64,000 nucleotides of DNA from Lumbricus terrestris (Eukaryota; Annelida; Clitellata; Crassiclitellata; Lumbricidae). The stretch is taken from positions 31,724,760 to 31,788,759 of the forward strand of contig OX457037.1 in NCBI GenBank assembly GCA_949752735.1. The letters are read 5' to 3'. The position numbers were made by a program, and so were the translations under genes. Below the pieces are notes generated by a model, which was given only the letters and a program-made list of their open reading frames with translations, ran no database searches and was not told where the DNA came from. This document shows, piece after piece, positions 16,061 to 64,000 of the stretch; position 1 is the stretch's first letter; every line of letters begins with the position of its first letter.

Positions 16061-17179
16061 GCTAATGCAAAAACGACATTAACTAATCATTTTTACTTCT
16101 CTGTGACTTTAACAGAACTTTGTACATTGTTGGTATGTATACTAATGAACACTAAATTTGGTTCAAAATTCATTCTGATTATGATTTAAAAAATGCAAAT
16201 GTTTGTTGTAGGTTAAGCAAGCATAACTTAGTAATATTTCTTTTGTATTATATAAATGATAACAATGGTTTCACAGCTTTTATGCTGATAGATAATACTG
16301 ACAAATTTGTCAAATACCACCATTGCATGCAACTCGCGATACCAAAAACGACCATTTTTGGCACACTGTAAACTCCTTAAAACAAAAAACGCCATTGGGA
16401 TTTTTGGAACACTTATCAATTGAACCATGCTCTATCCGAAAATGCAATAAAAAATGTATATTTTTTGATGTTTTTTGGGAATATTTTTTTCTTCGACCCC
16501 CCCTTGTAGGATCTGGTCAACTTTGACAGCAGATATCCAGCAGATGGGTATCAGTGATGAAGTAAAACTTTGCCAAGTAAATGCCAGCCACATAGACAGT
16601 ATACATATAAAATATGAATGCATTGTGCCTGGTATATATGGAGATATTGATCACTGATTATTGCAAAAATACGATATAAAATGAATATGAAGGCACTTTT
16701 GATATTTAATTCAGTTGAAATTAGAGGAGACACAATAACTTTCTTTATATTTCTGTAATCTATGCAAGAAACTGTATAGGTATAAAAAAATCATCCAATT
16801 TGGTAAAACCATTTTAGAGATATCAACTCTCAAAAAGTGGACATCACGAAGTTTCGCGAGATGCCTTCGGAGGGTGGGGTCACGGAATCCACGATATCTT
16901 GAAAAGTATTTGAAATATTTCTTAAAGACTTTGGATTTTTCCATCCAATATACCCTGCAACACGTGGATAAAATTTCAGCCAAATCGGAGATGGTCGAGT
17001 GGGAGGCATTGGTTGAGTTGAGCTGGAATGACCCATGTCCAACTTCATTTGATAGCATCACTCAAATCACAGAACAAACTCAGATAACCGTTAGAGAAGC
17101 AAAAGACAGAGACAGAAAAACAGAGACAGAGAAACAGCAAGACATAGAAGAACACACAGAGCCAGAGAGAGCCAAGTAC
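16061..17179. other. Non-coding; probable unclassified repeat near 16.3-17.05 kb
   Basis: The block 16300-17050 has runs of T and A, a C7 run at 16497, and overlapping open frames on both strands with no domain. Its look is that of a decayed interspersed repeat, but I could not find its ends or a target duplication. Confidence 0.3.
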
Positions 17180-17726
17180 CTTGAAGACCTTGACGGCGAG
17201 TCGACCCTGCAGTTCAGAAATTGGCATCACGGCTACGAACGATTGGACGCAGCAGATGACCGCGATGGTGGGCGGCTGGACAGTCGGCGGAAACATGTAC
17301 TCGTACAAGTTAACCTGGTTTTTCGTCACCATCAGAGCTTTGTGCTCGATGAAGGGAAAGCTGAAGCTGTAGCCAGTTGCGTAGATAACGACATCGATGT
17401 CATCTTCGAACGATCCATCCTCAAACTCGACTCCAGTCTCCGTGATTCTCCGCACGTTCGGCTTCACGACGATTCCGCCGGATATGATTCTGTTCGGAAG
17501 TTCATCGTTCACCATGATGTGCTGCGCGTCGAATCGGTGGTCAGGTTTGAGGCCGTACAGCTGGTGATTGAAGCGTCTGTTGAAAATTCCTTCGACGAAA
17601 AAGTTGAAGACGCTTCGTTGCATAATATGATTCCTGATGTCATAGAGGAAATGACGATCGAAGATGAAGTCGACCAGAAGGCCGTAGAATCCCACTCGGT
17701 TAGTCACCCATGAGCCACGTCTGGTG
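17180..17726 (-). CDS. Flavin-containing monooxygenase, one internal exon
   Basis: One intact minus-strand exon of 547 nt runs from an acceptor (CTAAG) at 17726 to a donor (AAG/GTACTT) at 17180. It encodes about 182 residues typical of the middle of animal FMOs: RRGSWVTNRVG, FNHQLYGLKPDHRFDAQH, NDELPNRIISGGIVVKPNV, then the family signature DVVIYATGYSFSFPF, and near the end MPISELQGRLAVKVFK. The last phrase sits at an exon border as in vertebrate FMO genes. FMOs are FAD- and NADPH-dependent enzymes that oxygenate N or S in xenobiotics. The FAD- and NADPH-binding GxGxxG exons and the C-terminal exon were not found on either side, so this is either an orphan exon or a gene with very long introns. 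Confidence 0.85.
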
Positions 17727-18239
17727 CTTAGGTATACCTAAGTGCAGTCAAACAATCACCGATGTCAGTTCAGCAGACAAAAACATTGCAGAACACAGAA
17801 TTCCACTCATCCCATGCATGTGAATGATTGCATTATGGTTTCTCTATCAGACCCAGGCTTGGTCTGCCTTGGTGCTGATTATTACATTCAATCCCTACAG
17901 TGCAACGTTTTTTGGCAAACACTGTCTATAACCTCACCATCTTTCAATGTCACTGACGACATTATATTGCACTCACACGAAAACCCTATCTGTAGGTTCA
18001 ACCCATTGTAATAAACAGTGTCTGTATCTAAAAAAAATATATAATGTGGGGCTAAACTTAGCCATGAAGAAGGCTACACAGTAAGCATTGTTATGCACTG
18101 ATACCACATCAGGACCTTGTCACATTGTGATAAATTTGTTTATTGCTAAGTTCCCACATAGCACATGGAAGTACCTTTTTGGCAATTTAAAGGTTCAACA
18201 TGATTCAAGAGACGTGGTATTTCATCTGAAAAGACAGTG

Positions 18240-18692: not shown

Positions 18693-19187
18693 CTGTACCT
18701 GTTGATCCACGTCCATGGCATTTGTTTGGCTTTGAAGACCTCCGATTAAGTTATTTCCATTAGGTGTTTGCTGCTGTTGCTGGTTTGCTACCCCTGCAGA
18801 GTTCTGGACAGCACTTGTGGAGAGATTTGAACCTTGCTGGTTCGTCCTGGACTGTTGCTGGTTTGCTACCCCTGCAGAGTTCTGGACAGCACTTGTGGAG
18901 AGATTTGAACCTTGCTGGTTCGTCCTGGACTGTTGCTGGTTTGCTACCCCTGCAGAGTTCTGGACAGCACTTGTGGAGAGATTTGAACCTTGCTGGTTCG
19001 TCCTGGACTGTTGCTGGTTTGCTACCCCTGCAGAGTTCTGGACAGCACTTGTGGAGAGATTTGAACCTTGCTGGTTCGTCCTGGACTGTTGCTGGTTTGC
19101 TACCCCTGCAGAGTTCTGGACAGCACTTGTGGAGAGATTTGAACCTTGCTGGTTCGTCCCGGAGTTGTCACGGCTCCGAGCCCTTAT
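18693..19187 (-). CDS. Gln/Asn/Ser-rich repeat exon of an unidentified protein
   Basis: On the minus strand an acceptor TTTTAG precedes an open segment that starts IRARSRDNSGTNQQGSNLST. It contains five copies of a 26-residue unit (from SNLSTSAVQNSAGVANQQQ through SRTNQQG) and ends GGLQSQTNAMDVDQQ. There are two possible donors six bases apart, GTACAG (exon end 18699) and GTAACG (exon end 18693), both in phase 0. The sequence is low-complexity, polar and probably disordered. The DNA units are 78 bp and look almost identical, so the array is young. No domain identifies the gene. Nearby minus-strand exons at 20756-20872 do not match its phase directly. Confidence 0.5.
18781..19170. repeat. 78-bp tandem repeat, five near-identical units
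   Basis: TGGTTTGCTACCCCTGCAG recurs at 18781, 18859, 18937, 19015 and 19093, exactly 78 bp apart. As 78 is a multiple of three, the minus-strand frame is kept through the array. Confidence 0.97.
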
Positions 19188-24344: not shown

Positions 24345-26185
24345 AACTGATTGTATTGCATTGATGCATTTATATAGCGCCGCCTAAGACCGTTTAGAGG
24401 CGCTCTCAGCACGATAAACCCCGTGGGAATATAATTAAATATTTGTAAAGAACGATCGAGAGATCGACTGATAAGGAAAAATTAATTGTAATCGTAATCG
24501 TAAACTCGAGATTTCTAAAGCGCCACTCGAAAGCCAAGCGCGGGGCACCAGCTTATTCACGAGCGCTGCGTTGAGTTAGAAGGGTTGTCCGTAAGAGTAG
24601 TCCGTGGTGGTCCGGGTCGAGTTACCATAGGATCAGAATCAGATGCGTTGAGTTAGAACGGTTGTCCGTGAGAGTAGTCCGTGGTGGTCCGGGTCGAGTT
24701 ACCATAGGATCAGAGGGGCGGAACAGCTATCAAGGCGGGTGTCGTCTGGGCCGGGAATTGGAGGGTGAAGGATCAGATGAGACAGGGTAAGAGTTCGTGA
24801 AAAGGAGTGTCTTGAGTTTCGAATGAAAAGCCCGAGGTGTGATGGATAGAGGAGCCTGAGGAAGGTTTTGGTGTGTGATTAGTAGTGATGGTGGAGGGAC
24901 TGAAAAGGATCGGAATTCAGGAGGCAGGTACGTCATTCCAAAGGCGTGGTGCTGAGATGGATATGGCTCGGTTGGAGAACTTGAGATGACTTGTGACCGG
25001 CGGTCGAGAAAGTGTCAGGCAGGCGGATGATCGTGTAGAACGGGTAGGCTGGATGGTGAAGAGATCGCGAAGATAACTTGGCTGAGAGCATTGCAAAGAG
25101 TTGTAGGTTAAGGAGAGAACTTTAAAGTGGATTCGCTCTGGGATTTTCAACCAGTGAAGTGACTTGAGGATGGGGGTGATGTGATGATGTCTGGGTGTTC
25201 TGGTGACGGCTCTAGCTAGAGAATTTTGAATGAGTTGGAGGCGCTTAAGTTGTGAGGAGTCAAGGCTTAAGAACAGAGAGTTGCAATAGTCAAGTTTTGA
25301 GTGGACGATGGACGTAGCAATGGTAGAAGCAGTTTTGAAATCGAGCATAGGTCGGATGCGACGGAGGTCCCGGATGTGCATGAAACAGGAACGCGATAGG
25401 TTAGAGATGTGGTTAGAGAAGGAGAGATGCAAATCAAACATTACACCAAGATTTCGGACAGGAGCATCAGAAGTAAAGGTAAGAGACGAAGAGTTAGTCG
25501 ATAGGTGTATTGAAGGGTCTGGAATTTTCTTGATTTGGTCAGGAAGTCCAAGAATGATGAACTCTGTCTTGGAGGGGTTGAGGCAGAGGAGGTTGGAAGA
25601 CATCCATTTAGAGATTAGATTGACCACATTGAGAAGTTGAGCAATGGAGGTGGAAAAAGAGCCTGGGGAGAAGGATATGAAGAGTTGAGCGTCGTCTGCG
25701 TAGAGATGGTGGTCAACAGACGAGGATTCTATGAGATGACTTAAAGGAGTGGTGTAGAGAATGAAGAGCAACGGACCCAGGACGGAGCCTTGTGGAACGC
25801 CACAAGATAGTGGAAGGGGTTGTGAACAGTGACTGGAGGCTTTAACAGAAAAGGATCTGGAAGAGAGATAGGACTGGAACCAAAGTAGAGCAGTGCCAGA
25901 GACGCCAAAAGAAGAAGAGAGTCGGTTAAGAAGAAGATTGTGATCGATGGTGTCGAATGCAGCGGAGATGTCGAGGAGGCAGAGGCAGGAGACTTGCTGA
26001 TGACTGACGGCAGAAACCAGTTTATTATATAGAGAGACAAGTAGAGTTTCTGTGGAGTGATGTTTAGTGAAGCCAGATTGGTAGGGGTTGAGGAGTGAGT
26101 TGGAGGAGAGGTAATCGTTTAGCCGGGAAAGGACAATTCGTTCGGTTAATTTAGATAGAAAAGAAAGGTTGGAGAAAAATTAGTC
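24345..26185 (-). mobile_element. 5'-truncated L2/CR1-like LINE
   Basis: From about 26180 leftward the minus strand reads through reverse-transcriptase blocks: SNSLLNPYQSGFTKHHSTET, LLDISAAFDTIDHNLLLNRL, CGVPQGSVLGPLLFILYT, then the catalytic HHLYADDAQLF, LNPSKTEF, RNLGVMFD, KLDYCNSLF and LWNDVPAS. A +1 frameshift near 24920 breaks the frame. The correct continuation (LPPEFRSFS, AFHSKLKTLLF) is in the next frame and ends near 24730. The 3' UTR ends GGCGCTATATAAATGCATC, the usual 3' end of this LINE group. The endonuclease half is absent. Confidence 0.88.
24568..24721. repeat. 77-bp tandem duplication in the LINE 3' region
   Basis: The segment starting GCGTTGAGTTAGAA at 24568 is repeated at 24645 with only a few differences. 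Both copies contain GTCCGTGGTGGTCCGGGTCG. Confidence 0.9.
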
Positions 26186-27321: not shown

Positions 27322-27415
27322 TCGGCGCTAGCACCCCCTGGTTAGGGGCCTCAAGTTTGCAAGGGGCCTCCAAATTTAGCTGATCATTATGCCTATTTTT
27401 GTGACTGTATATATA

Positions 27416-27845
27416 TGCTAAAATGGCGCATTCACTTAGGGGCCCTGATCCGGTCTGGTGCATGCCTCAACAAACCATGGCACTGCCATATAAAAGTTCT
27501 AAATGCAAATATCATACTGATTTGGGTGTAAGAATAGGCTAGCCATTTAGACTAATTCAGGCCATATGAGTCTACATCCTCAAACACAACGTTTATGACT
27601 TATTCTAAACACTAATGGAGTGCCTCAAAATGCTAAAATGGCGCATTCACTTAGGGGCCCTGATCCGGTCTGGTGCATGCCTCAACAAACCATGGCACTG
27701 CCATATAAAAGTTCTAAATGCAAATATCATACTGATTTGGGTGTAAGAATAGGCTAGCCATTTAGACTAATTCAGGCCATATGAGTCTACATCCTCAAAC
27801 ACAACGTTTATGACTTATTCTAAACACTAATGGAGTGCCTCAAAA
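27416..27845. repeat. 215-bp perfect tandem duplication
   Basis: 27416-27630 and 27631-27845 appear identical base for base, starting TGCTAAAATGGCGCATTC and ending AGTGCCTCAAAA. A recent duplication inside the hAT element. Confidence 0.95.
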
Positions 27846-28699
27846 TAGAACCTACATGAGGCCCCCTCCCCCAAATAAATCCTGTGTAGGCCCCAGATGT
27901 CATTGGGACGTGTATGGCCTCCAAATTTAGCTGGCAATTAATTATACTTTTCATGACTGTTCATTCCTGAAACTACGCACCGAATATATATTTATATATA
28001 GATTTTATATATTTAAACAAAGCATACAAAATAATATTACGAAAACCAATACAGCAATTGTCCTTCAACCAAGGGCTGAGGCTTAGGCTAGAGGGGACAG
28101 AGGCGTGGACCCACAATTTGTGATGGGGACGGAGTCCTTAGGTTCTCCCAATATTTCAGAAATATTTCATAAGTATAATAAATTTCTTCAGTTTTATCCA
28201 TTGTCTTTACATAATGATCAATTCTGTTAGGATGACAGCTTAAAATACGACGATTAGGCTACAGTGTGCAAATCAAAAATTAAACAATGAAGTCGGAAAT
28301 TTATTGAAATCTTAAAACATGCCTCATGAGCACTGAAATTATGAACAATTTAGTTAGGATGACAGCTTCAAATGCAACAGATACATTGTACAAATTAAAA
28401 AAGTTTCAACAATTGGAAGGCAACACTAAAGAACAGCATTGAAAAAAGAGCAATTTTGTTATGCTGACAGCTTAAAATTCTACCTGTACAGTGTGGAAAT
28501 TTAAGTATTAATTATTAAACCATGTCTTGCAGCACTTAAATTATGAGAATTTTCAAAATGACAGCTTAAGGTAGGGGGCCTAGAGTTTTTTGGGGCCTCA
28601 GGTACCCTAGCGCCGGCACTGCATCTGATCGAACCTTTAACACAAACAACGGCTCTACAAAACAGGAGTATCAGTACAGCATGCAACAAAAGTTATCAG

Positions 28700-29735
28700 T
28701 GTAGCGGTAGAATGCTTCTTATCAAACAAACCTATTAAATGATGCATTGTATAAGTATTAAATAGGTAAGAATTAAGCTAGACAATATGTGGCGTATTGT
28801 AGATTATAATTAATGTTACTTGTGGCATTAAGTTAGATAATAATAATAGCGCTATAACAATTCTTGAATACGCGCTACATCAATTATCGAAACACAACGA
28901 AGGGCAGAAAGCAGCGTCAAACTTGAGCAGACGGCAACAACGGCAGACGAAAAGTTAGACAGCGAAAAGATGGCGAAGGAAGAAGACGTAGATTTCTGAG
29001 CAAGGGCGGCCATTGACGATTGTGGCGTTCCTTGTCGGTAATTCAGAAGATCTGACGGTGAATTGGGTGTGGAAGGCGACACGTTGTCGGCCTGTCCCAC
29101 TGGTGAGACTATAAGTCCTTGGGAATAGAGATACCAAGGCTTGTCGTACGGAAACTTTGCGAAGTTTGGTGAGACACTTGCGAGTGCACTGCGATCGACA
29201 TCGGAGAAGATCGAATTCGGAACTACAATTGCGATTGGAGTTCGACGGCAGAAGAAAGGGGCGAAACTACAACAAGACGAGCAAGCGACGAGAAGCTACC
29301 GTTGCTTGTGGAGAAACAACGAGGTGGACGAAACTACAGAGTGCTGTGCCAGCTACAGCATTCTCCGTCTACGCAGCTACGGAAGAGAATTGGAAACGAC
29401 GGCAAGCAAGAAGAAGGTGACCTTCCTTCCTCTTCAAACCTTCATTCCAATCCATACGAACTGAAGAACTTCTACATCTACGCTGGAAAAGTCCAACGTG
29501 GAAGATAAGAAACAAGCTATAATATTATTAGATAATACGCCACAATAAGTAGATAGGATTATTGATTGTATTTTACTGTTTGATATTGTTTTATTATAAT
29601 ATAATCTTTAAACGAATCTCAGCTACATTTGTTTTAGGTCCTAGTTCATTCTAATATTGATCACCCAATGGCCTCTGAGCATAAAGTTCCCTATTAAAGC
29701 TAGATTTAAAACCCTAGATTTTGATGGCTGTGACA
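28700..29735 (+). repeat. 5' LTR (1036 bp)
   Basis: Starts TGTAGCGGTAGAATGC and ends GGCTGTGACA, the usual TG...CA borders. It shows no difference by eye from the 3' LTR. The right part is GC-richer (28900-29500) and contains open frames on both strands that are identical in the two LTRs; I regard these as non-coding. Confidence 0.95.
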
Positions 29736-29739
29736 AGAG

Positions 29740-29757
29740 TGGGGGCCCGTCCGGGAT
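29740..29757 (+). promoter_or_regulatory. Primer-binding site, tRNA-Pro type
   Basis: TGGGGGCCCGTCCGGGAT begins four bases after the LTR. It differs by one base from the tRNA-Pro primer site used by murine gammaretroviruses. Minus-strand DNA synthesis would start here. Confidence 0.85.
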
Positions 29758-30064
29758 AAAAGTCAGTAAAGATTTAAGTCAGTAAAGATTTAAGTCAGTA
29801 AAGATTTAAATCAGTAAAGATAACTGTCTTTTGAACAGTATTAGAAAAACTTTGAACAATTATAGCTAGGAGATTGTTAGAGACTAAATCTGAAATTGTA
29901 GATTGAAGATACTGCAGTAGGTGTATGAACTATTAGTTGTTGTTGTGGAACTGAATTGACACTTTGCAGAATTGAACAATTTCTATTTGTTAGAAATTTA
30001 AATAGCGCACATAGTTGCCAATATTTTTGTCATAAGTTGCTAGTCAGCAAGTAAGACAGTAAGT

Positions 30065-33000
30065 ATGTCTGTCAGTGATTTTGAAGCTTGGTTAGAAATT
30101 GCCAAACGGATGAACATGGAAGGGGACGAGACACGTGCCTTTGTCAAAGAAAGACAGGCAGAGTGGAGGCAAGATAGAGCGACTGAGAGGGAGATCGCCA
30201 AAGAGATGAAATTAGCTGAAGCAGCAGCAGAAGTCAAGAGACTTGAGATAGAAGCAGTAACGAGGAAGGCTGAAACAGAAGCTGCTACGAGAAAAGCAGA
30301 GATGGAAGCTGAAGCAGCAGCAGAAATGAGAAAAGCTGAAGCAGCAGCGAGAAAAGCTGAAACAGAAGCAGCAACGAGAAAAGCCGAAGTAGAAACAAGA
30401 AAAGCTGAAACAGAGGCTGCAATGCAAGCAAAGAAGGCTGAACTGGAATTGGAAGCAATCAGGAGTGCTGAAGCAGAAGCCAGATTGAATCGTGAAGCAG
30501 CTGAGACAGAAGCGAGAGAAAGTCGCTTGGCAACAGAAGCCAGAGAACAGCGTGAACACCAGTTAGAGATAAAGAGACTTGAAGCACAGGTGAGAATGCG
30601 TGAAATTGATTCGAGAGGGGAACAAAACCGAGAGCACGAGAGTGACTACATGAGGATCGGTGATGGTCAACAACAGGGAGATCACCGAGAAAACAATAAA
30701 GGAATTAGAAATATCAAATTCCCTATATTCAACGAGTCAAAGGATTGTTTAGATGCCTACTTGTTGAGATTCGAGAGAACCTGTGTTGCGTACGAAGTTA
30801 AAAAAGAAGTTTGGTCGCTGACGCTAGCTAGACATTTGGAAGGCAGAGCACTAGAAGTATACCAAAGGTTGTCTGCAGATGAAGTGCAAGATTATGAGTG
30901 TTTGAAGACTCAGCTGTTGAAGAGATTTCAACTTACTGAAGGTGGTTATCGAAACAAGTTCAAAACCAGTAAAATGGAATCAGGAGAGACACCTTCTAGT
31001 TTTGTGCATAGATTGAGAAGGTATATGCAACAGTGGTTAGCACAAGCGGGATTTGAGAGAACTTATGAAGGAGTGGAAGATCTCTTGTTGAAAGACCAGT
31101 TTTACCTGACATGCAGTACTGAACTTCGTATGTTTATAAAAGAGAAAGGTAAAATGAGTTTGAAGGACATGTTGGTTTGTGCGGAATCACACATTGAAGC
31201 ACACGGTTACAAATACAGCGAGCAGTCTGCAAAATCAGACGTGAAATTCCATGGTGACAGGTTGAACGGTAGACCGTTTGAACACAGACCCAAGGAACAG
31301 TCTGGGTACAATTTGAACAGGAGTAGAAGTGATGTGAAGATAAATCAGGGTGTACATCAAAACCGAGGGTTCAGTAGAGAAAGAGAAATTGCAACTGGAC
31401 ATAAGATTACTTGTTTTTTCTGTGGAGAACAGAACCATAAGGCATATCAATGCCCAAAGAAAAACAGGGGTACATTTAAACACACTGCAGCAGCAGTACA
31501 AATATTCGAAAGTCGAGCACACTTGGTTAAGCCAGAAAGTGAAATACAGAGAGTGGTTGAAGTTACAAGAGGAGAACAACAGATGAAACAGGGTGAACAT
31601 AATAAAATACCACCAATGTACATGGCAGCTAGTGCAATGGTGATAAAAGACAATGATGGATGTATTAGCCTTGAAGATAAGAGTGAATACCAGGTGACAG
31701 TTAATGGAAACACAGTGGGATGCTTATACGACACAGGCGCAAGTTGTTGTATTGTAAAACGTTCTTTGATAAATGAAGAAGCGTTGACTGGAGAAGAAAC
31801 ACATTGTGTATTAGTTGATGGGAGTTTAAGATGTTTCCCATTGGCTAAGGTGTATATCGAGAGTGAACATTTTAATGGTGAAGTACAAGCGATGGTGATG
31901 GAACAGCCAATAAAGCCAGTAATAATTGGGAAAATCAAAGGATTGAAGTACATGGTTAAGGATGAAAGAACTGAGAGTGTGACAAATCATGAGCCAAAAG
32001 AAATAATTGAGAAATGTACTGAAGTGGAAAACAAAGGAATATTGATTAGAAAAACAGAACATGAAGAAAGACCTATTGGTGCAAAGAAAACAGTAAGATT
32101 TTCTGACAATGTGATGAGGAATCAAGATGAAAAATTAATGACAGTAGCAGTTGTGGAGACTAGGGCAGAAGCTAAAAAGGTAGCAAAATACAAACCATTG
32201 AAAGTGGCGGAGATGCCGAACTTGAATGTGTCAGTAAAAGAGATACAGGAGTTGCAGAGTCAAGATGAAACTATGTCGAAACAAATGGAAAGAGCAATTG
32301 AATGGGATGGTAACGAAGACAACATAGAAGATAAACCATATGTGAAAAAGAAGGGATTGTTGTATAAAAGATACAAAGAAGTACAGAAGGATGAGGTGAA
32401 ATGGCAACTAATGGTACCTAAACCATTGAGGGATAAAGTGTTAGCAGTAGCACATAATTCATTGTTGTCGGCTCATTTAGGAATGAGGAAAACACATGAT
32501 AAAATTCTAAATGAATTCTATTGGCCTGGAATAGGACAAGATATACGGAGATATGTGTTGAGTTGTGATATTTGTCAAAAGTCAGTTGACAAGAAGGTGA
32601 ACCACAAGGCGCCTATGGGTCATCTACCTGTATTAGATGTACCATTCAAACACATATGCATAGACATAATCGGAGAAGTTAACCCTATGTCTGCAAGGGG
32701 TTACCGATACATATTGACCATCATAGACTTGAGTACAAGATATCCGGAAGCTATTCCATTGAAAGGAATTAGTACTGAGGAAGTTGCAGAAGCTTTGTTC
32801 GGATTTTATTGTCGTATGGGAGTGCCTCAGAAGATCCATACTGATCGTGGAAGCCAGTTCACTTCTGAACTCATGGCTGAAGTAAATAAGATGCTATTGA
32901 TAAAACACACCATGACGAGTCCATATCATGCAATGGGCAATGGATGTGTAGAACGGCTTAATGGAACCATCAAAGCGACGTTGAGGAAGTTGATTGGTGA

Positions 33001-34999
33001 ACAAGCGAAAGAATGGGATCGTTATATAGCTCCATTACTGTTTGCGTTGAGAGACACAGTACATGAGAGTCACGGTTTCACACCATTCGAACTAATATTT
33101 GGTAGATCGTGTAGAGGACCAGTGCAGATCCTGAAGGAGTTATGGACCAATGAGACAGTGGAAGAAGAAGTGAAGGACGTATATACGTATATGCAGGATT
33201 TGAGAGAAAGGATTGAGGAGACTTGTGATATGGCGCAGAAAGCGATACACAAAGCGAACGCTAAAAACAAGAAGTATTATGACAGGAAAGCGAGATACCG
33301 GAAGTTGGAAATAGGTGATAAGGTGTTGTTACTATTGCCTAGTTGTAAGAACAAGATGTTAGTAAAGTGGCAAGGGCCATATGTTGTGAGAGAGAAGATT
33401 GGAGACTATGATTACAGAGTTGAAATCGAGAAAGGAAAGATAAAGACATATCACATTAATATATTGAAGAAATACCACGAAAGAGAAGATGCCGAGACCG
33501 TAGCGTACATTTCAGCAGTAGTATATGACGGAAAAGTGGGAGAAGATGAAGAAGAAGAAATATTGGATTTATATGTAAGTGAACAAACAGAGACCTATGA
33601 AGATGTAGATATAAATCCTGATTTGGATGAAGAACAAAAAGGAGAAATGAGGAAACTACTGAAGAAATATGAAGACATTTTCACAGACAAGCCTGGGAGA
33701 ACAGACTTAGTGAAGCATGAAATACATTTGACGAGTGAAGAGCCAGTAAGACAAAGAGCTTATCCAACACCATACCATTTGCAAAAAGAAATAGATAAGG
33801 AGATCCAGACGATGTTAGACAATAAGGTGATAGAAAGATCAGAGGCAGCTTATGCAGCACCGCTGGTGGTTGTCAAGAAATCAGACGGAAGCAATAGACT
33901 GTGTTGTAATTACAAACAGCTAAACAAACTTACAATATTTGATCCTGAGCCTATGATGACAAATGAGGATATTTTTAATAAGTTGAGTGGTAGTAAAATC
34001 TACAGCAAGTTCGATTTCTGCAAGGGTTATTGGCAGATCCCTATGAGTCCAGAATCGAAAGACTACACTACATTTGTATGTGCCAATGGGATATACAAGT
34101 TCAATGTGATGCCTTTTGGATTGATCAATAGTGCGTCAAGTTACAACCGTTTAATCAGGAAGATTCTTCAAGGAACAGAAAATCTTCAAAGTTATGTCGA
34201 CGACATTCTAGCACATAATAAAGGATGGAGAGAACATTTGAAGACATTGGAGATATTTTTCGAAAGAGTGAGACAAGCGAATTTGACATTGAAGCCGAAG
34301 AAGTGTTCAATAGGATATGGAAAGATTGACTTTTTGGGACATACGTTGAACAAGGATGACATAAGTCCAAAGGAGAAATCAGTGGATAAAATAATAGACA
34401 TGCCACGTCCAAAGACAAAGAAACAAGTCAGGAGTTTCCTTGGAGCGATAAACTATTATCGGAAATTCATACCACACTGTGCGGAAATTATGGCACCGTT
34501 AAGTGACTTAACGAAGAAGATAGCACCTGGGATAGTAGAATGGAATGAAGAGCTGGAGGTTAGCTTTACAAAGTTGAAGAACGAATTGGCGAAAGAACCA
34601 ATTCTGAGACTTCCAAATTTAGAGAAGGATTTCATCCTACAAACTGATGCAAGTGGGAGTGGAATCGGATGTGTGATAATGCAGCAGTACGAGGGGACGA
34701 ATCATCCCATAGCGTATGCGAGCAGGAAGCTGTTAGAGCGAGAGAGAAGATATTCTGTGGAAGAGAGAGAGTGCTTAGCAATCATGTGGGGTATAAGCAG
34801 GTTCGACCGATATCTTTGTGGAAAGACATTTACAATTGAGACAGACCATTGCGGATTGCAATATATGAAAGAGGGTCGAATGAAAAATGCAAGGGTGATG
34901 AGATGGAGTTTGGCACTCCAAAATTATTCCTTTAACATTAGATATATTAAAGGGTCCGAAAATGTTATGTCCGACTATTTAAGTAGAGGGATTGTGTAG
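30065..34999 (+). CDS. Gag-Pol polyprotein (PR-IN-RT-RH order)
   Basis: 1644 codons in one frame, TAG stop. Residues 40-180: a charged, Ala/Glu/Lys-rich coiled coil. About 215-385: a capsid-like Gag domain of the kind from which vertebrate SCAN domains derive (LEGRALEVYQRL, then a QF-x-LTCS-x-ELRMFIKEK pattern). Zinc knuckle C450-C453-H458-C463 (CX2CX4HX4C). Protease YDTGAS at 555-560. Integrase: zinc motif H797/H804/C834/C837, catalytic D867, D927 and E963 (spacing 35), and a GPYVV GPY/F module near 1104. Reverse transcriptase about 1215-1400 with D1317 and YVDD at 1377-1380. RNase H with TDAS (D1528), TDH (D1594) and D1637. All catalytic residues are present. Gag and Pol are fused without a frameshift or stop between them. 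The start is the first ATG after the leader. Confidence 0.95.
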   Translation: MSVSDFEAWLEIAKRMNMEGDETRAFVKERQAEWRQDRATEREIAKEMKLAEAAAEVKRLEIEAVTRKAETEAATRKAEMEAEAAAEMRKAEAAARKAETEAATRKAEVETRKAETEAAMQAKKAELELEAIRSAEAEARLNREAAETEARESRLATEAREQREHQLEIKRLEAQVRMREIDSRGEQNREHESDYMRIGDGQQQGDHRENNKGIRNIKFPIFNESKDCLDAYLLRFERTCVAYEVKKEVWSLTLARHLEGRALEVYQRLSADEVQDYECLKTQLLKRFQLTEGGYRNKFKTSKMESGETPSSFVHRLRRYMQQWLAQAGFERTYEGVEDLLLKDQFYLTCSTELRMFIKEKGKMSLKDMLVCAESHIEAHGYKYSEQSAKSDVKFHGDRLNGRPFEHRPKEQSGYNLNRSRSDVKINQGVHQNRGFSREREIATGHKITCFFCGEQNHKAYQCPKKNRGTFKHTAAAVQIFESRAHLVKPESEIQRVVEVTRGEQQMKQGEHNKIPPMYMAASAMVIKDNDGCISLEDKSEYQVTVNGNTVGCLYDTGASCCIVKRSLINEEALTGEETHCVLVDGSLRCFPLAKVYIESEHFNGEVQAMVMEQPIKPVIIGKIKGLKYMVKDERTESVTNHEPKEIIEKCTEVENKGILIRKTEHEERPIGAKKTVRFSDNVMRNQDEKLMTVAVVETRAEAKKVAKYKPLKVAEMPNLNVSVKEIQELQSQDETMSKQMERAIEWDGNEDNIEDKPYVKKKGLLYKRYKEVQKDEVKWQLMVPKPLRDKVLAVAHNSLLSAHLGMRKTHDKILNEFYWPGIGQDIRRYVLSCDICQKSVDKKVNHKAPMGHLPVLDVPFKHICIDIIGEVNPMSARGYRYILTIIDLSTRYPEAIPLKGISTEEVAEALFGFYCRMGVPQKIHTDRGSQFTSELMAEVNKMLLIKHTMTSPYHAMGNGCVERLNGTIKATLRKLIGEQAKEWDRYIAPLLFALRDTVHESHGFTPFELIFGRSCRGPVQILKELWTNETVEEEVKDVYTYMQDLRERIEETCDMAQKAIHKANAKNKKYYDRKARYRKLEIGDKVLLLLPSCKNKMLVKWQGPYVVREKIGDYDYRVEIEKGKIKTYHINILKKYHEREDAETVAYISAVVYDGKVGEDEEEEILDLYVSEQTETYEDVDINPDLDEEQKGEMRKLLKKYEDIFTDKPGRTDLVKHEIHLTSEEPVRQRAYPTPYHLQKEIDKEIQTMLDNKVIERSEAAYAAPLVVVKKSDGSNRLCCNYKQLNKLTIFDPEPMMTNEDIFNKLSGSKIYSKFDFCKGYWQIPMSPESKDYTTFVCANGIYKFNVMPFGLINSASSYNRLIRKILQGTENLQSYVDDILAHNKGWREHLKTLEIFFERVRQANLTLKPKKCSIGYGKIDFLGHTLNKDDISPKEKSVDKIIDMPRPKTKKQVRSFLGAINYYRKFIPHCAEIMAPLSDLTKKIAPGIVEWNEELEVSFTKLKNELAKEPILRLPNLEKDFILQTDASGSGIGCVIMQQYEGTNHPIAYASRKLLERERRYSVEERECLAIMWGISRFDRYLCGKTFTIETDHCGLQYMKEGRMKNARVMRWSLALQNYSFNIRYIKGSENVMSDYLSRGIV

Positions 35000-35142
35000 T
35001 ATAAGTTGAGATAAAGTAAATGAAGAAGTGTAAGCCAGTGAGTAAAGTGTATTAATTGTCATGTCGTGTATAGTAAGTGAATTAGTTTACTAGGTTAGTT
35101 TGTTAAGTAGGTTAGTTTGTTAAAGCCTGTAAACAGTCTTTT

Positions 35143-35156
35143 GAAGGAGGGGCATT
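35143..35156 (+). promoter_or_regulatory. Polypurine tract
   Basis: GAAGGAGGGGCATT immediately precedes the 3' LTR. It would prime plus-strand DNA synthesis. Confidence 0.8.
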
Positions 35157-36192
35157 TGTAGCGGTAGAATGCTTCTTATCAAACAAACCTATTAAATGAT
35201 GCATTGTATAAGTATTAAATAGGTAAGAATTAAGCTAGACAATATGTGGCGTATTGTAGATTATAATTAATGTTACTTGTGGCATTAAGTTAGATAATAA
35301 TAATAGCGCTATAACAATTCTTGAATACGCGCTACATCAATTATCGAAACACAACGAAGGGCAGAAAGCAGCGTCAAACTTGAGCAGACGGCAACAACGG
35401 CAGACGAAAAGTTAGACAGCGAAAAGATGGCGAAGGAAGAAGACGTAGATTTCTGAGCAAGGGCGGCCATTGACGATTGTGGCGTTCCTTGTCGGTAATT
35501 CAGAAGATCTGACGGTGAATTGGGTGTGGAAGGCGACACGTTGTCGGCCTGTCCCACTGGTGAGACTATAAGTCCTTGGGAATAGAGATACCAAGGCTTG
35601 TCGTACGGAAACTTTGCGAAGTTTGGTGAGACACTTGCGAGTGCACTGCGATCGACATCGGAGAAGATCGAATTCGGAACTACAATTGCGATTGGAGTTC
35701 GACGGCAGAAGAAAGGGGCGAAACTACAACAAGACGAGCAAGCGACGAGAAGCTACCGTTGCTTGTGGAGAAACAACGAGGTGGACGAAACTACAGAGTG
35801 CTGTGCCAGCTACAGCATTCTCCGTCTACGCAGCTACGGAAGAGAATTGGAAACGACGGCAAGCAAGAAGAAGGTGACCTTCCTTCCTCTTCAAACCTTC
35901 ATTCCAATCCATACGAACTGAAGAACTTCTACATCTACGCTGGAAAAGTCCAACGTGGAAGATAAGAAACAAGCTATAATATTATTAGATAATACGCCAC
36001 AATAAGTAGATAGGATTATTGATTGTATTTTACTGTTTGATATTGTTTTATTATAATATAATCTTTAAACGAATCTCAGCTACATTTGTTTTAGGTCCTA
36101 GTTCATTCTAATATTGATCACCCAATGGCCTCTGAGCATAAAGTTCCCTATTAAAGCTAGATTTAAAACCCTAGATTTTGATGGCTGTGACA
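35157..36192 (+). repeat. 3' LTR (1036 bp)
   Basis: Same length as, and apparently identical to, the 5' LTR. It ends GGCTGTGACA and is followed by the ATCAG target duplication. Confidence 0.95.
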
Positions 36193-36253
36193 ATCAGCAC
36201 CAGTGCAATAAAACAGCACCACTTCAATATGACAAAATCCAGACGCTTATTCC

Positions 36254-41789: not shown

Positions 41790-43325
41790 GAACAGAATAA
41801 CACATCCATTACTCGCTTCGTGACGGCATTCTACCAGCATCTCAGAAACAGTCGATCATCACGCCGATCCTGAAACAGCCGGGACTTGACCCTCTTCTGC
41901 CGTCTAGCTATAGGCCTATAGCTAATGTTACTTTTATATCTAAAATTATTGAAAAGCTTCTTAGATACTTGGACTCAAATATGCTCCTCCCACCATACCA
42001 ATCTGGCTTTTGCAAGGGGCACTCCACTGAGACCTTCTTCTTCATCTTCTTTCTGATGTTTACAAGGCGATTGACAAATCGCAGGTAACTCTTCTGGCTC
42101 TCTACGACATGAGTGCTGCTTTCGACACTGTCGATCACAATATTCTAATTCATAGACTTTCTACTTCTTTTGGCATCTCTTCTCTGCCCCTTGACTGGCT
42201 CACATCTTATCTAGCAGACCGCTCCTCTTCCACTGTCTTTCACTCCACCCGTTCCCCTTGGATCCCCGTTCCAGTGGGCCTTCCGCAGGGCTCTGTTCCA
42301 GGGCCCTTGCTCTATATCCTTTTCACTGCAGACATTGGCTCTTTGCTCGCTTCTTGCTCATTGCGAAGCCACTCTTACGCTGATGATGTCCAATCATATG
42401 CCCATTGCCTTGCTGTGGACGCAGCCAAAACTGTCCGCCTTATGGTCTGCGCTTCTCACACCCTTACTTCTTGGCTTTCGTCAAATCGACTGCGACACAA
42501 CTCTTTGAAGACGCAATTCATATGGCTGGGAACTCGCCAGCAGCTGGCCAAGATTGACTTGGCTGCTCTTGCACATGAGTTTCCCCTTGTAACCTTCTCT
42601 ACCTCTGTTCGAGACCTTGGGGTCATCTTGGACCAAGAACTCTCCTTCTCTAAGCACATCTCTTCCCTGTCACGTGCCTGCTATTACCAAATTCGACAGC
42701 TGCGCGTCGTTGCTCGCTCTCTCTCATTCACTGCATCTTCTACTCTTGTCCATGCCTTTGTTTGCAGCCGTTTAGATTACTGCTCCTCTCTTTATGTTGG
42801 CCTGCCACAGGTCCGTCTGAACTCCTTGGTTAGGGTCCTTCGATCTGCAACACGCTTGGTTGGTGGCATCTCCCCGTTTGCTCACGTTTCTGCCTTCATG
42901 AGGGACGACCTCCACTGGCTCCAACTGCAGCAACGCATTGCTTATCGAGTTTCATCTATAGCTTGGCGCTGCATTCTGTCTCAAGCTCCATCCTACCTTT
43001 GTGAGCTTTTTACTCCAGTCTCGGTTTCTCTGGGTCGTCGTTCGCTGCGGTCAGCTGCCCGCGGTGACTATCTTGTCCCTTTTTGTTGTACCGCTACTAT
43101 GCAGCGAAGAGCATTTTCCGTGGTGGGTCCAGCTATCTGGAATGGCCTCCCTGCGGCTCTCCGTTCGCTTCCCCGTGACTCTCCTGGTTCTTTCTACCGT
43201 CTTCTCAAGACCTTTCTCTTTGACCAGGCCTGGGTTGGGAGCGCCTCTGAGTAGAGATCTTGAAGGGGCGCTATACAAATTTATGTGATTGATTGATTGA
43301 TTGAATGATTGATTGATTGATTGAT
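41790..43325 (+). mobile_element. 5'-truncated L2/CR1-like LINE with GATT tail
   Basis: The plus-strand reverse transcriptase starts near RDGILPASQKQSIITPILKQ. It has one frameshift near 42035 and is then open to the stop at 43252-43254. Blocks include LYDMSAAFDTVDHNILIHRL, GLPQGSVPGPLLYILFTADI, the catalytic SYADDVQSYA, RDLGVILDQELSFSKHI, RLDYCSSLYVGLP and AIWNGLPAALRS. The 3' end is GGGGCGCTATACAAATTTATG followed by (GATT)n at 43290-43325. The rightward frame of 381 codons is long and open, so the copy is fairly young. It is a different family from the LINE at 24345-26185. Confidence 0.92.
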
Positions 43326-50629: not shown

Positions 50630-51050
50630 GAAAAAACCTCATTATCACCATATGTCTGATGAAAGAGTGAACCTCTTATCATCATATGCCTGATGAAAGA
50701 GTGAACCTCATCATCATATGCCTGATGAAAGAGTGAACCTCATTATCATCATATGCCTGATGAAAGAGTGAACCTCATCATCATATGCCTGATGAAAGAG
50801 TGAACCTCATTATCATCATATGCCTGATGAAAGAGTGAACCTCATTATCATAATATGCCTGATGAAAGAGTGAACCTCATTATCATCATATGCCTGATGA
50901 AAGAGTGAACCTCATTATCATCATATGCCTGATGAAAGAGTGAACCTCATTATCATAATATGCCTGATGAAAGAGTGAACCTCATTATCATCATATGCCT
51001 GATGAAAGAGTGAACCTCATTATCATCATATGCCTGATGGAAGAGTGAAA
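50630..51050. repeat. 32/35-bp tandem array (about 12 copies)
   Basis: The unit CATATGCCTGATGAAAGAGTGAACCTCAT is separated by either CATCAT-type or TATCAT-type spacers, giving 32- and 35-bp steps. Copies are nearly identical. The first copies are the most diverged and the last ends with GATGGAAGAGTG. Confidence 0.95.
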
Positions 51051-60149: not shown

Positions 60150-60660
60150 GAACAGACAGCCTGCATTAAAAAGTGACGTACATGTAGAGACTGAGTCATC
60201 TGGCTCTGGATAGGTCCAGCTGAAGAGACATTGTGAAGAGGGCATCGGACACCTATGGGTACTGAGCCCACAGTTATTGAAGGCGGAAGAATGGTCATTC
60301 CAAACAGAGGGACCAACAGCAACAAGCGCCTGATGTTGGGCAAGAGCAGTCCTAGTCCTGGGAACAAAAGGATCAAGACGATCAGCAGAATGCGATGAGC
60401 GAGATGAAAGATCAAGATGATCAGCAGAATGCGATGAGCGAGATGAAAGATCAAGACGATCAGCAGAATGCGATGAGCGAGATGAAAGATCAAGAGGATC
60501 AGCAGAATGCGATGAGCGAGATGAAAGATCAAGACGATCAGCAGAATGCGATGAGCGAGATGAAAGATCAAGATGATCAGCAGAATGCGATGAGCGAGAT
60601 GAAAGATCAAGATGATCAGCAGAATGCAGTGGGCGAAATGAAGATGCAGATAACAGCTGT
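60150..60660 (-). pseudogene. CR1/L2-like LINE C-terminal fragment with internal amplification
   Basis: On the minus strand one frame reads FVPRTRTALAQHQALVAVGP, then SVWND, the common end of CR1/L2-type ORF2 (RTRxxxxxxRAFxVxGPxLWN). Directly before it, in the same frame, SSRSSHSAD (normally one copy, upstream of VPRTR) is repeated about six times as a 13-residue unit. Only the C-terminal part of the LINE is present. Confidence 0.7.
60395..60660. repeat. 39-bp tandem repeat (about 6.5 copies)
   Basis: The unit GCGATGAGCGAGATGAAAG, then ATCAAG(A/G)(C/T)GATCAGCAGAAT, recurs every 39 bp with single-base variants. The length is a multiple of three, which keeps open frames on both strands. Confidence 0.97.
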
Positions 60661-61399: not shown

Positions 61400-62815
61400 T
61401 GTTAGCTAAGCTAAGTGGTTGCTTAGCATTGTGGCACCATGCACGACGTTCGACCAACCGCTATGGCTGAAGACAGTGGAAATAAACTTATCACCTTTGA
61501 TAGATGTATTGTGCCGACTCATCGAATTTTTGCATGCTCATAAGCTTCTTTGGAAGCCTTTTTGGAGCAGGTGTGGATTGGCCGAGTCTATTGGAGTTAT
61601 GGTCCAATCACTGTCATGATTGTCATCTGTATTAGTAGCATGGGTATTGTTGATGGAGTATTGGGTGACCGGTGAGATGACTCCTATGGAACATCTATTG
61701 AAGTTTCCTGCTGTTGAGTTAGTGTAGGTGTATATTGTGTTTTGCTTTATTTGGTGGTGAATAAACTACTTGCTTACTTATTTTCTGCCATTCTAGTTAA
61801 GATGCTAGTGTAGCGTTTTGGGAAAAGCTACAAAATTATACTTATTTTTATCCATGTTGGCCATAACGGTTAATTAACTCTATGCTGCACCAGAGCGAGG
61901 CTGCAGACATTACGCCAGCATGACGTGTGACCTTTTGGATGACGTGGCGAAAGTGTGGGCGCCGCTGATTGGCCAAGAGCGACGCGTGACCTACAAACAG
62001 CGGTAAAAGGTCGCTTCCTATTGGCTGTTGGACCAATCTAGGTCAGTAGGACAAAGAGACGCGAAGAGGTGAAACCGACGAGAAAGACTAGGCCATCTTT
62101 TTGAATAGAAATTCGTTTAAAACTAAGTTTTCGGGCATCTAAATTAATAAGGAAGTCAACTAAATTAATAGATAATAAAGTAAACGACCGCTGGTCGCCT
62201 CCGGTGGAAGGAGAACGTCGAAATAAGCAAAACCGCTTAGGAATCAGGGAAGTAGAAATAAATTAAAGTGTAGCGTGCTGAATCTGTAAATGAATGAATG
62301 TTTAAAATGGCCGGAACGCGTTGATATAGATTATATAGCGCATTACAGGTAGAGCGAAGGATAAATTAGCGCTTGTATTAAGAAGCGTGAATATATTGAA
62401 AGAGTTGCTAGAAGTAGCCTTGCGATATAACTGTTGCTGTGGTCGTGGTAAACTAGTGCAAAGTGTTGATGTTAATTCGTTGCTTTTGTGTAACTGATTA
62501 ATAGCGTGATTTGACCTTCTGCAGTAGTTAAGGAAATAAGAACTGAACTGATAGCCTAGTTATATGCAGGAGCATAAGAGATAGGTATCAAGTAATGCAG
62601 AGTGTGTAATAACCAGCCATAAATGCTGTGTAGTGTTAGGAATACTTTGTGTTGAACTGATAAGTATTATAGGCAGAATTGTATTTGCACAGATTGCTGC
62701 CAATTGTATATTAATTAAGTAGTAGTGAAAGAACAAATAAAGTGTTGCATATTGAACTAGAATTGAAGGTGATTCACTGACTGACTTGCAATTAGTTGTA
62801 AAACCGAATAATCCC
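61400..62815. other. Upstream region of the right-edge reading frame
   Basis: No exon seen. GC content rises after about 61.9 kb, consistent with a 5' UTR or promoter, or with an LTR, for the frame starting at 62816. A TGTAGCG word at 61810 resembles the start of the Gmr1 LTR, but nothing after it matches that LTR. Confidence 0.35.
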
Positions 62816-64000
62816 ATGTCTCGTGCCAGCTCTTTGAGGGGGGACGCCCTAGAGGAATCGGATGATTCGGAGGGAGGGCGGACAGTCAGTAGTGATGAGA
62901 GATTGATAGAGCGCCAGATATATCCAGCCAAATACTCTCCGCCACCTCTTCAGGAGTTCGAGTCCCTTTCGCCCAAAGCTGCCGTGGGGATAACGAACTC
63001 AGACGAGCACCAGAAAGAGGGTGCTGTCGCGCGTCGACAAACCGCCGCGGAGACATGTCCTGTAGGCCCTGGTACCCATGAAAGAAGAGAATCTGGACGT
63101 TCCTCCCTGTCGTTCACACTTGAGGTTCCCGTAGGTGGTTCCCTGTCGCCCCGGCAGTACGCCGCCACACTAGGGGAGGGGGGCGAAAGTAAGCGAGTAA
63201 GTGGGGCATCCCTTGCAAGCGCTTCCGGTCCCCTAGCGGTTAGGGCGGGCGTAACAAATGGTACCAGAAGTGGGGTAGAAGTGGAACAAGGGGAACAAGT
63301 GGAACAGGTGGAACCAAGAAAATTTGGAAGGACAGAATTTCCTGGAGAGAGAGAGAAGTGGGAAGGCGAAGAAATGGCTTATTATGGCGCTAGACCCAAG
63401 CGTCCTTCGGACTACCCTGTTACCGCAGCAATTGATGCGGGTTTTGATTTTGAATTTTACATGAGAGATAAACAAGCGAGGTTGGTTAACAGAAAGCTTG
63501 GAGGAAATAATTATGAAAGTGAAGGTTCGGAGGTAACTGATCTGCGACCCTTTCATAACGTTCTGTTGCATCCTAATATGTTGAATTTGGATAAAGGTTG
63601 TGTTGGGATCCTTGCTAACTCTGAGTGTATAGTTTCAGATATGGAGGATGGGGATTCGGCGCTGCCGAGGGAACTGGGACTCCCGACTTCGGATGCACAT
63701 CCCGGGCACCCAACCCTAGTCCACCCTCGGGCTACCACCTTCCCACCACCGCCTCCCTCGTCGCACCCTTTCGCCGTCCGAGCCCCTCCTGCTCCGACCC
63801 CGAACACAATCGGTGGCGTCGTCAAGTCGAATCCTTGGGTGAGAACCGTCACCCCGGTCACAGCCTCGGTGTGCAAACTGTCCGTATCCGTCGTGTCGTC
63901 GATTCAGTCAATCATGTCGACCTTGTCCTCGTCGTTGAAGCCACAGGTTACACAAAGTTCCGCCTACCTGTCCTCGAACCCTGGCCCTCCCGCTCACCTG
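62816..64000 (+). CDS. Long open frame cut by the window edge; unknown protein
   Basis: ATG at 62816 opens a frame of 395 codons with no stop before the window ends, the longest open frame here after the retrotransposon. It starts MSRASSLRGDALEESDDSEG and continues with acidic, Ser/Pro/Glu-rich low-complexity sequence. There is a short EQGEQVEQVEPR repeat near residue 160. A more ordered segment follows (PSDYPVTAAIDAGFDFEFYM, then RLVNRKLGG), then a Pro-rich run (FPPPPPSSHPF) and a Ser/Val/Thr-rich part. The region is clearly GC-richer than the rest of the window. It could be the first coding exon of a regulatory protein, or ORF1/gag of a retroelement whose body lies to the right. I see no zinc knuckle or other deciding motif. 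Confidence 0.5.
   Translation, partial: MSRASSLRGDALEESDDSEGGRTVSSDERLIERQIYPAKYSPPPLQEFESLSPKAAVGITNSDEHQKEGAVARRQTAAETCPVGPGTHERRESGRSSLSFTLEVPVGGSLSPRQYAATLGEGGESKRVSGASLASASGPLAVRAGVTNGTRSGVEVEQGEQVEQVEPRKFGRTEFPGEREKWEGEEMAYYGARPKRPSDYPVTAAIDAGFDFEFYMRDKQARLVNRKLGGNNYESEGSEVTDLRPFHNVLLHPNMLNLDKGCVGILANSECIVSDMEDGDSALPRELGLPTSDAHPGHPTLVHPRATTFPPPPPSSHPFAVRAPPAPTPNTIGGVVKSNPWVRTVTPVTASVCKLSVSVVSSIQSIMSTLSSSLKPQVTQSSAYLSSNPGPPAHL

Follow-up and report, generated by a model that had tools for sequence, protein, structure and literature searches.

A 64,000-nucleotide stretch of the Lumbricus terrestris genome (contig OX457037.1; C2:31724760-31788759 in our searches, hereafter the window) holds what is almost certainly an autonomous Gmr1-type Ty3/gypsy long terminal repeat (LTR) retrotransposon, inserted very recently and belonging to a family that spread too fast for LTR divergence to build up. 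Among Gmr1 elements it is an ordinary member; the part worth following is the patchwork at its putative primer-binding site (PBS). The original prediction had described a perfect 5-bp target-site duplication (TSD), two LTRs without visible difference and one 1644-codon frame in which the integrase precedes a YVDD reverse transcriptase (RT) and RNase H. All three descriptions were borne out (Table 1), and base-by-base alignment of the two LTRs, 1036 bp each, gave 0 mismatches rather than many.

Age of the insertion and of its family

The exact LTR repeat of the window element runs on for 1 base beyond the LTR because the spacer and the TSD both happen to begin with A. A random 5-bp match at fixed LTR edges would arise in about 1 in 1000 cases, and a perfect 5-bp TSD flanks 14 of 17 LTR pairs in the genome (window included), so that the TSD in the window is not a chance match. 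No further copy, solo LTR or Gmr1 fragment was found elsewhere in the 64-kb window by BLAST with the LTR, leaders and domain pieces.

The host genome that we searched comprises 1,056,305,194 bases (1.06 Gb) in 331 contigs. From 993 first-look candidates 40 LTR matches were scored, which makes the copy number a lower bound, and the sample was chosen by likeness to the window LTR and thus favours close copies. The 38 LTR stretches retrieved gave, with the window, 17 pairs and 6 unpaired LTRs. Within pairs the LTRs differ by 0-1 substitutions each (7 in total over ~17.6 kb; pair L001/L002 additionally differs by indels), and between copies the 5' LTRs show up to 13 differences. The mean age of an LTR pair is ~15,000 years at 1.3e-8 substitutions per site per year, a rate used for an annelid (PMC8220671; papers are cited here from excerpts), and ~0.2 million years at an assumed 1e-9, while the window copy alone (0/1036) caps its divergence at about 0.3%. 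We rejected solo LTRs as an account of the 6 unpaired LTRs, five of which have a polypurine tract on the left and one a PBS on the right; their partners were probably not among the 40 matches scored.

Coding capacity was compared over a 2.7-kb integrase-to-RNase H piece in 16 other copies and is complete, with no new stop codon or frameshift, in 15 of them. Among the codon changes that separate these 15 from the window copy, 185 are synonymous and 37 nonsynonymous; the crude rate ratio of 0.05 fits copies descending from working parents. Two copies stand apart. One (L026/L025, L051) has an internal deletion, with identical LTRs 4.9 kb apart and a perfect TSD; 32% of the 2.7-kb piece aligned, with two 1-base indels, and this copy possibly moved as a deletion derivative. 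The other (L024/L023) has identical LTRs, flanks that do not match and a spacer base that elsewhere accompanies the other LTR type, and is perhaps a recombinant between copies.

A single identical LTR pair could equally result from gene conversion or assembly collapse in an old insertion, and the window and its copies all come from one assembly. Yet 16 further pairs elsewhere are just as alike, 13 of them with a perfect TSD of their own, and collapse or conversion across copies would erase the pair-specific haplotypes, although conversion within a copy could still have acted; we hold an old insertion disguised in this way to be very improbable. Judged from these sequences, the family has spread very recently in its host. 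The copies found by the search of the assembly that the original prediction had proposed strengthen its claim of recency; that the copy is also recent enough to be active is a reasonable supposition.

Assignment to the Gmr1 clade

Goodwin and Poulter are said to have set out Gmr1 in 2002 as a clade of Ty3/gypsy. The domains of the window frame follow, by Pfam, the order SCAN, CCHC, protease, H2C2, rve, SH3 (Tf2-1-like), RVT_1 and RNase H, and the best solved-structure match over the whole RT-RNase H part is the Ty3 RT (E 1.4e-79). The Ty3-type RT and the integrase-first order therefore point to a Ty3/gypsy element of the Gmr1 kind.

We compared the element with two sets of proteins. First, a protease-to-RNase H query matched 1232 proteins over its integrase-to-RNase H part at E <= 1e-3, the best 120 of which were used. 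In all 119 relatives for which BLAST with pieces of the window located both domains, the integrase core lies ahead of the RT, and named sources among these best 120 are the echinoderms Patiria, Strongylocentrotus, Diadema and Antedon, the brachiopod Lingula, the scallops Pecten, Argopecten and Mizuhopecten and the gastropod Gigantopelta. Neither the RT piece nor an alignment retrieved relatives in scans of viral contigs, and a scan of genome contigs with an integrase piece retrieved none either. Second, a contrast set was drawn with the yeast Ty3 RT-RNase H as query, at least 80% of the RT piece being covered in 110 of the 120 matches listed; the RT precedes the integrase in all 12 with a visible integrase domain, the order not being visible in the other 98.

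A maximum-likelihood tree of RT-RNase H was built from 83 rows, namely 53 of the 119 integrase-first proteins, 29 of the 110 Ty3-derived ones (12 seen to be RT-first, the order of 17 not visible) and the window. It splits the window and the integrase-first rows (54) from the Ty3-derived set (29) at 100/100, and the window groups with P0002-P0005 (100/98) inside a 17-row group (100/99). The RT tree that the original prediction had called for thus joins the window to the integrase-first rows, as expected there, and was built without the named Gmr1 (cod Gmr1 and others), Mag, CsRn1 and retroviral references, none of which, the founding Gmr1 included, appeared among the 120 relatives listed. In an integrase tree of 48 rows the nearest rows were the same as for the RT; the single RT-first row of this tree sits on a very long branch, so that the tree speaks to neighbours and not to the clade, and in it P0017 carried a wrong group label, its RT cover being below 80% in the contrast-set count.

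Integrase before RT is the copia order, and the same arrangement would be seen in a Ty1/copia element or in a gypsy-copia chimera that gained it by recombination with copia. Besides the match of the whole RT-RNase H part to Ty3, the integrase C-terminus is a Tf2-1-like SH3 with a GPY motif, and RT and integrase share their nearest relatives, all of which argues against either origin, to which we accord next to no probability (the trees included no copia integrase). Ty1/copia membership itself was rejected on the RT, which is not of the copia type, only the domain order being copia-like. From domain order, the RT-RNase H tree, integrase neighbours and SCAN-type Gag we accordingly read the element as a Gmr1-type Ty3/gypsy with copia-like order, in agreement with the identity first proposed.

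The statement that such elements are described from deuterostomes, in contrast, holds for the founding description only. Gmr1-like elements of decapods were given as the first in protostomes (PMC3587641), the annelid Lamellibrachia has Gmr1-like elements (PMC8220671), and these occur across several phyla (PMC8556966, whose excerpt reports none in that study's own polychaete transcriptomes). The window element is, like those of decapods and Lamellibrachia, a protostome member of the clade, likened by description; no paper with Gmr1 was among the literature matches listed for Gmr1 in Annelida or Eisenia. With the Gmr1 clade it shares an integrase upstream of a Ty3-type RT and the lack of env. 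Its single gag-pol frame of 1644 aa resembles those of fish Gmr1-4 (1506-1634 aa), a group in which the Gmr1 age peak lies at zero, whereas its LTR of 1036 bp compares with 337-518 bp in the fish elements (PMC11117352). A SCAN domain in Gag is found likewise in frogs, where the Silurana genome has about 200 Gmr1-like copies and more than 50% of Gmr elements carry SCAN (PMC4131045); beyond frogs, we find SCAN annotated also on matches whose names point to Lingula, scallops and a gastropod.

Gag, element ends and proposed life cycle

The Gag of the element has a SCAN-like capsid lobe, a reading based on Pfam, fold and place. The stretch recurs in 99 of the 120 best relatives (BLAST of window pieces) and is recognised by Pfam in 21 of 26. 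No solved SCAN chain was among the 50 rows listed in each fold comparison, and the SCAN chain 1y7q is a weak sequence match (E 0.035). CCHC, protease and SH3 score below their Pfam cut-offs, yet the motifs CX2CX4HX4C, DTGA and GPY are legible, and 35 residues separate D927 from E963 in the integrase core. The 157 bp between the pol stop and the 3' LTR contain no frame of at least 80 aa confined to that gap, and a retrovirus or errantivirus with env was rejected on this account.

At the left end, 4 nt (AGAG or CGAG) lie between the LTR and the TGG of the putative PBS in 18 of 18 five-prime ends, and at the right end GAAGGAGGGG followed by CATT directly precedes the second LTR in 17 of 17 pairs. 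If priming and polypurine cleavage take place where they usually do, the integrase must trim the 4 nt that lie outside CA at both ends, and we infer 4-nt end processing. In its geometry the 18-nt TGG site suits a PBS, and it would fit a tRNA 3' end with discriminator C, putatively tRNA-Pro-like for the window form. A search of the 64-kb window gave neither tRNA genes nor Rfam matches at gathering score.

In the life cycle that we propose, RNA would be made from LTR to LTR and translated into a single Gag-Pol protein, and capsids would assemble through a two-lobed capsid domain whose C-lobe is the SCAN-like one. Reverse transcription would be primed by a tRNA at the PBS and the plus strand started from the polypurine tract, and the cDNA, trimmed by 4 nt at each end, would integrate with a 5-bp target duplication.

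Variation at the primer-binding site

The PBS is more variable than the LTRs in this family. In 18 copies the putative PBS takes six forms of 18-20 nt, TGGGGGCCCGTCCGGGAT being an 18-nt form, and its substitution diversity is ~12 times the LTR value, while the 12 nt after it are constant in the 17 pairs. The variable sites are column 5 (G in 8, T in 10), column 10 (G in 7, A in 11) and a two-column indel, and the forms recur on several LTR haplotypes. Among copy pairs with identical 5' LTRs the PBS differs in 7 of 8; three of these pairs involve L024, which lacks a TSD and may be recombinant, and with L024 left out the PBS differs in 4 of 5. The difference is one C of a C run in L007/L009, L007/L015 and L011/L020, and G/A at column 10, at a CpG, in L026/L037; such single-base differences on identical LTRs could be due to slippage, CpG decay or sequencing error. 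Larger differences accompany very similar LTRs: L032 and L007 are one LTR substitution apart and differ at column 10 and two indel columns, and the window copy and L020, two LTR substitutions apart, are distinguished by both of columns 5 and 10 as well as by the indel.

Because part of the PBS is a copy of the tRNA primer, the primer copy, the template copy with repair, or template switching can reshuffle it. Rewriting from the primer, tolerance of mismatches and switching of primer or template may all contribute, the most likely cause being that the copy of the tRNA primer replaces, or mixes with, the template PBS. We put forward very tentatively, and as rather doubtful, that the PBS is a fast-changing patchwork, which each cycle rewrites from the tRNA copy and the template and which is balanced between efficient priming and evasion of a host that recognises a perfect PBS; support is weaker because three of the four differences on identical LTRs (without L024) are one C in a C run.

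As the copy of the primer overwrites the PBS, the use of two or more host tRNA primers, rather than imperfect pairing with one tRNA, would also yield different forms, and their recurrence across LTR haplotypes speaks for such primer choice. However, columns 5 and 10 occur in all four combinations, a mosaic and not two clean types, and the usual spacing between CCA and the m1A58 stop is matched by the 18-nt forms and not by those of 19-20 nt. Several primers are thus a possible but on the whole unlikely source of the variation; PBS switching has been reported in SERV (PMC8775094).

Mutation together with selection against silencing of a perfect PBS by 3'-tRNA fragments has been proposed for mouse ETn, MusD and IAP. 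Cullen and Schorn describe young copies of these in which substitutions and indels make the PBS imperfect; they speculate that inheritance of the primer sequence is a matter of chance, and suggest that silencing by tRNA fragments is escaped in this way (PMC7472051). The substitutions and indels at few fixed PBS columns in our very young copies resemble that pattern, and by analogy we regard silencing escape, too, as a possible but on the whole unlikely explanation. Young copies of ETn, MusD, IAP and SERV likewise differ in the PBS by substitutions and short indels at few positions (PMC7472051, PMC8775094); unlike these mammalian endogenous retroviruses, the element studied here is a Gmr1 retrotransposon. 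Among the matches listed in our literature searches, judged by titles and the beginnings of abstracts, none reports PBS polymorphism in a Gmr1 family.

Features of the element and of the rest of the window

Table 1. Annotated features of the Gmr1-type element (window positions)
Feature	Position	Strand	Remark
Left TSD	28695..28699		ATCAG
5' LTR	28700..29735	+	1036 bp, TG...CA, identical to 3' LTR
Spacer, LTR to PBS	29736..29739	+	4 nt, AGAG
Putative PBS	29740..29757	+	18 nt, starts TGG, varies among copies
16-bp repeat x3.9 in leader	29760..29821	+	repeat make-up varies among copies
Single gag-pol open reading frame	30065..34999	+	1644 aa
Repetitive N-terminal Gag segment	30250..30414	+	overlapping 21-48 bp repeats
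SCAN-like stretch, read as capsid C-lobe	30947..31201	+	Pfam SCAN 31.7 bits, cut-off 27
CCHC zinc knuckle	31409..31459	+	18.5 bits, under Pfam cut-off 20.8
Aspartic protease, DTGA motif	31676..31930	+	under Pfam cut-offs; motif and place agree
Integrase zinc-binding domain (H2C2)	32414..32584	+	Pfam
Integrase core	32642..32953	+	D867, D927, E963
Integrase C-terminal SH3, GPY motif (Tf2-1-like)	33341..33478	+	23.5 bits, under Pfam cut-off 30
RT, YVDD	33872..34348	+	Pfam RVT_1
RNase H	34541..34927	+	Pfam
Polypurine tract	35143..35152	+	GAAGGAGGGG
Spacer, polypurine tract to 3' LTR	35153..35156	+	4 nt, CATT
3' LTR	35157..36192	+	1036 bp
Right TSD	36193..36197		ATCAG

Outside the element, a Pfam search of 115 of the 128 open stretches gave animal-like matches, for example FMO-like, fn3 and DSCAM; an exon-like frame at 17048-17737 (-) matches a flavin monooxygenase (Pfam FMO-like, E 3e-59), and a 415-codon open stretch at 62756-64000 (+), which runs off the window, has no Pfam match. 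A perfect 215-bp tandem duplication (27415-27846) lies ~850 bp left of the element, and minisatellite arrays with 95-99% matching units are found at 2428-2929 (88 bp), 18774-19163 (78 bp), 50635-51049 (35 bp) and 60371-60642 (39 bp).

Fragments of long interspersed nuclear element (LINE) RTs lie at 24917-26179 (-) and 42031-43254 (+). The first has matches of up to 93% identity (75% cover) and, among the 120 matches listed, one of 67% in a metagenome-assembled genome of Ca. Nephrothrix sp. EaCA, where it probably represents host DNA; Nephrothrix is an earthworm-linked genus of nephridial symbionts.

Implications

With this element, the Gmr1 families that have a SCAN-type Gag gain a clear example that is both very young and amplified, and the SCAN annotation in Lingula and in mollusc matches agrees with the view that the vertebrate SCAN domain came from Gmr1 elements long ago. 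Where copies with the same or almost the same LTRs carry different PBS forms, the differences may naturally record which primers were used, and with tRNA and small-RNA data both PBS rewriting and PBS-directed silencing become testable outside mammals. If the balance between priming and host recognition put forward above proves true, the tug-of-war over the PBS that has been proposed for endogenous retroviruses of mammals would be much older and more widespread.
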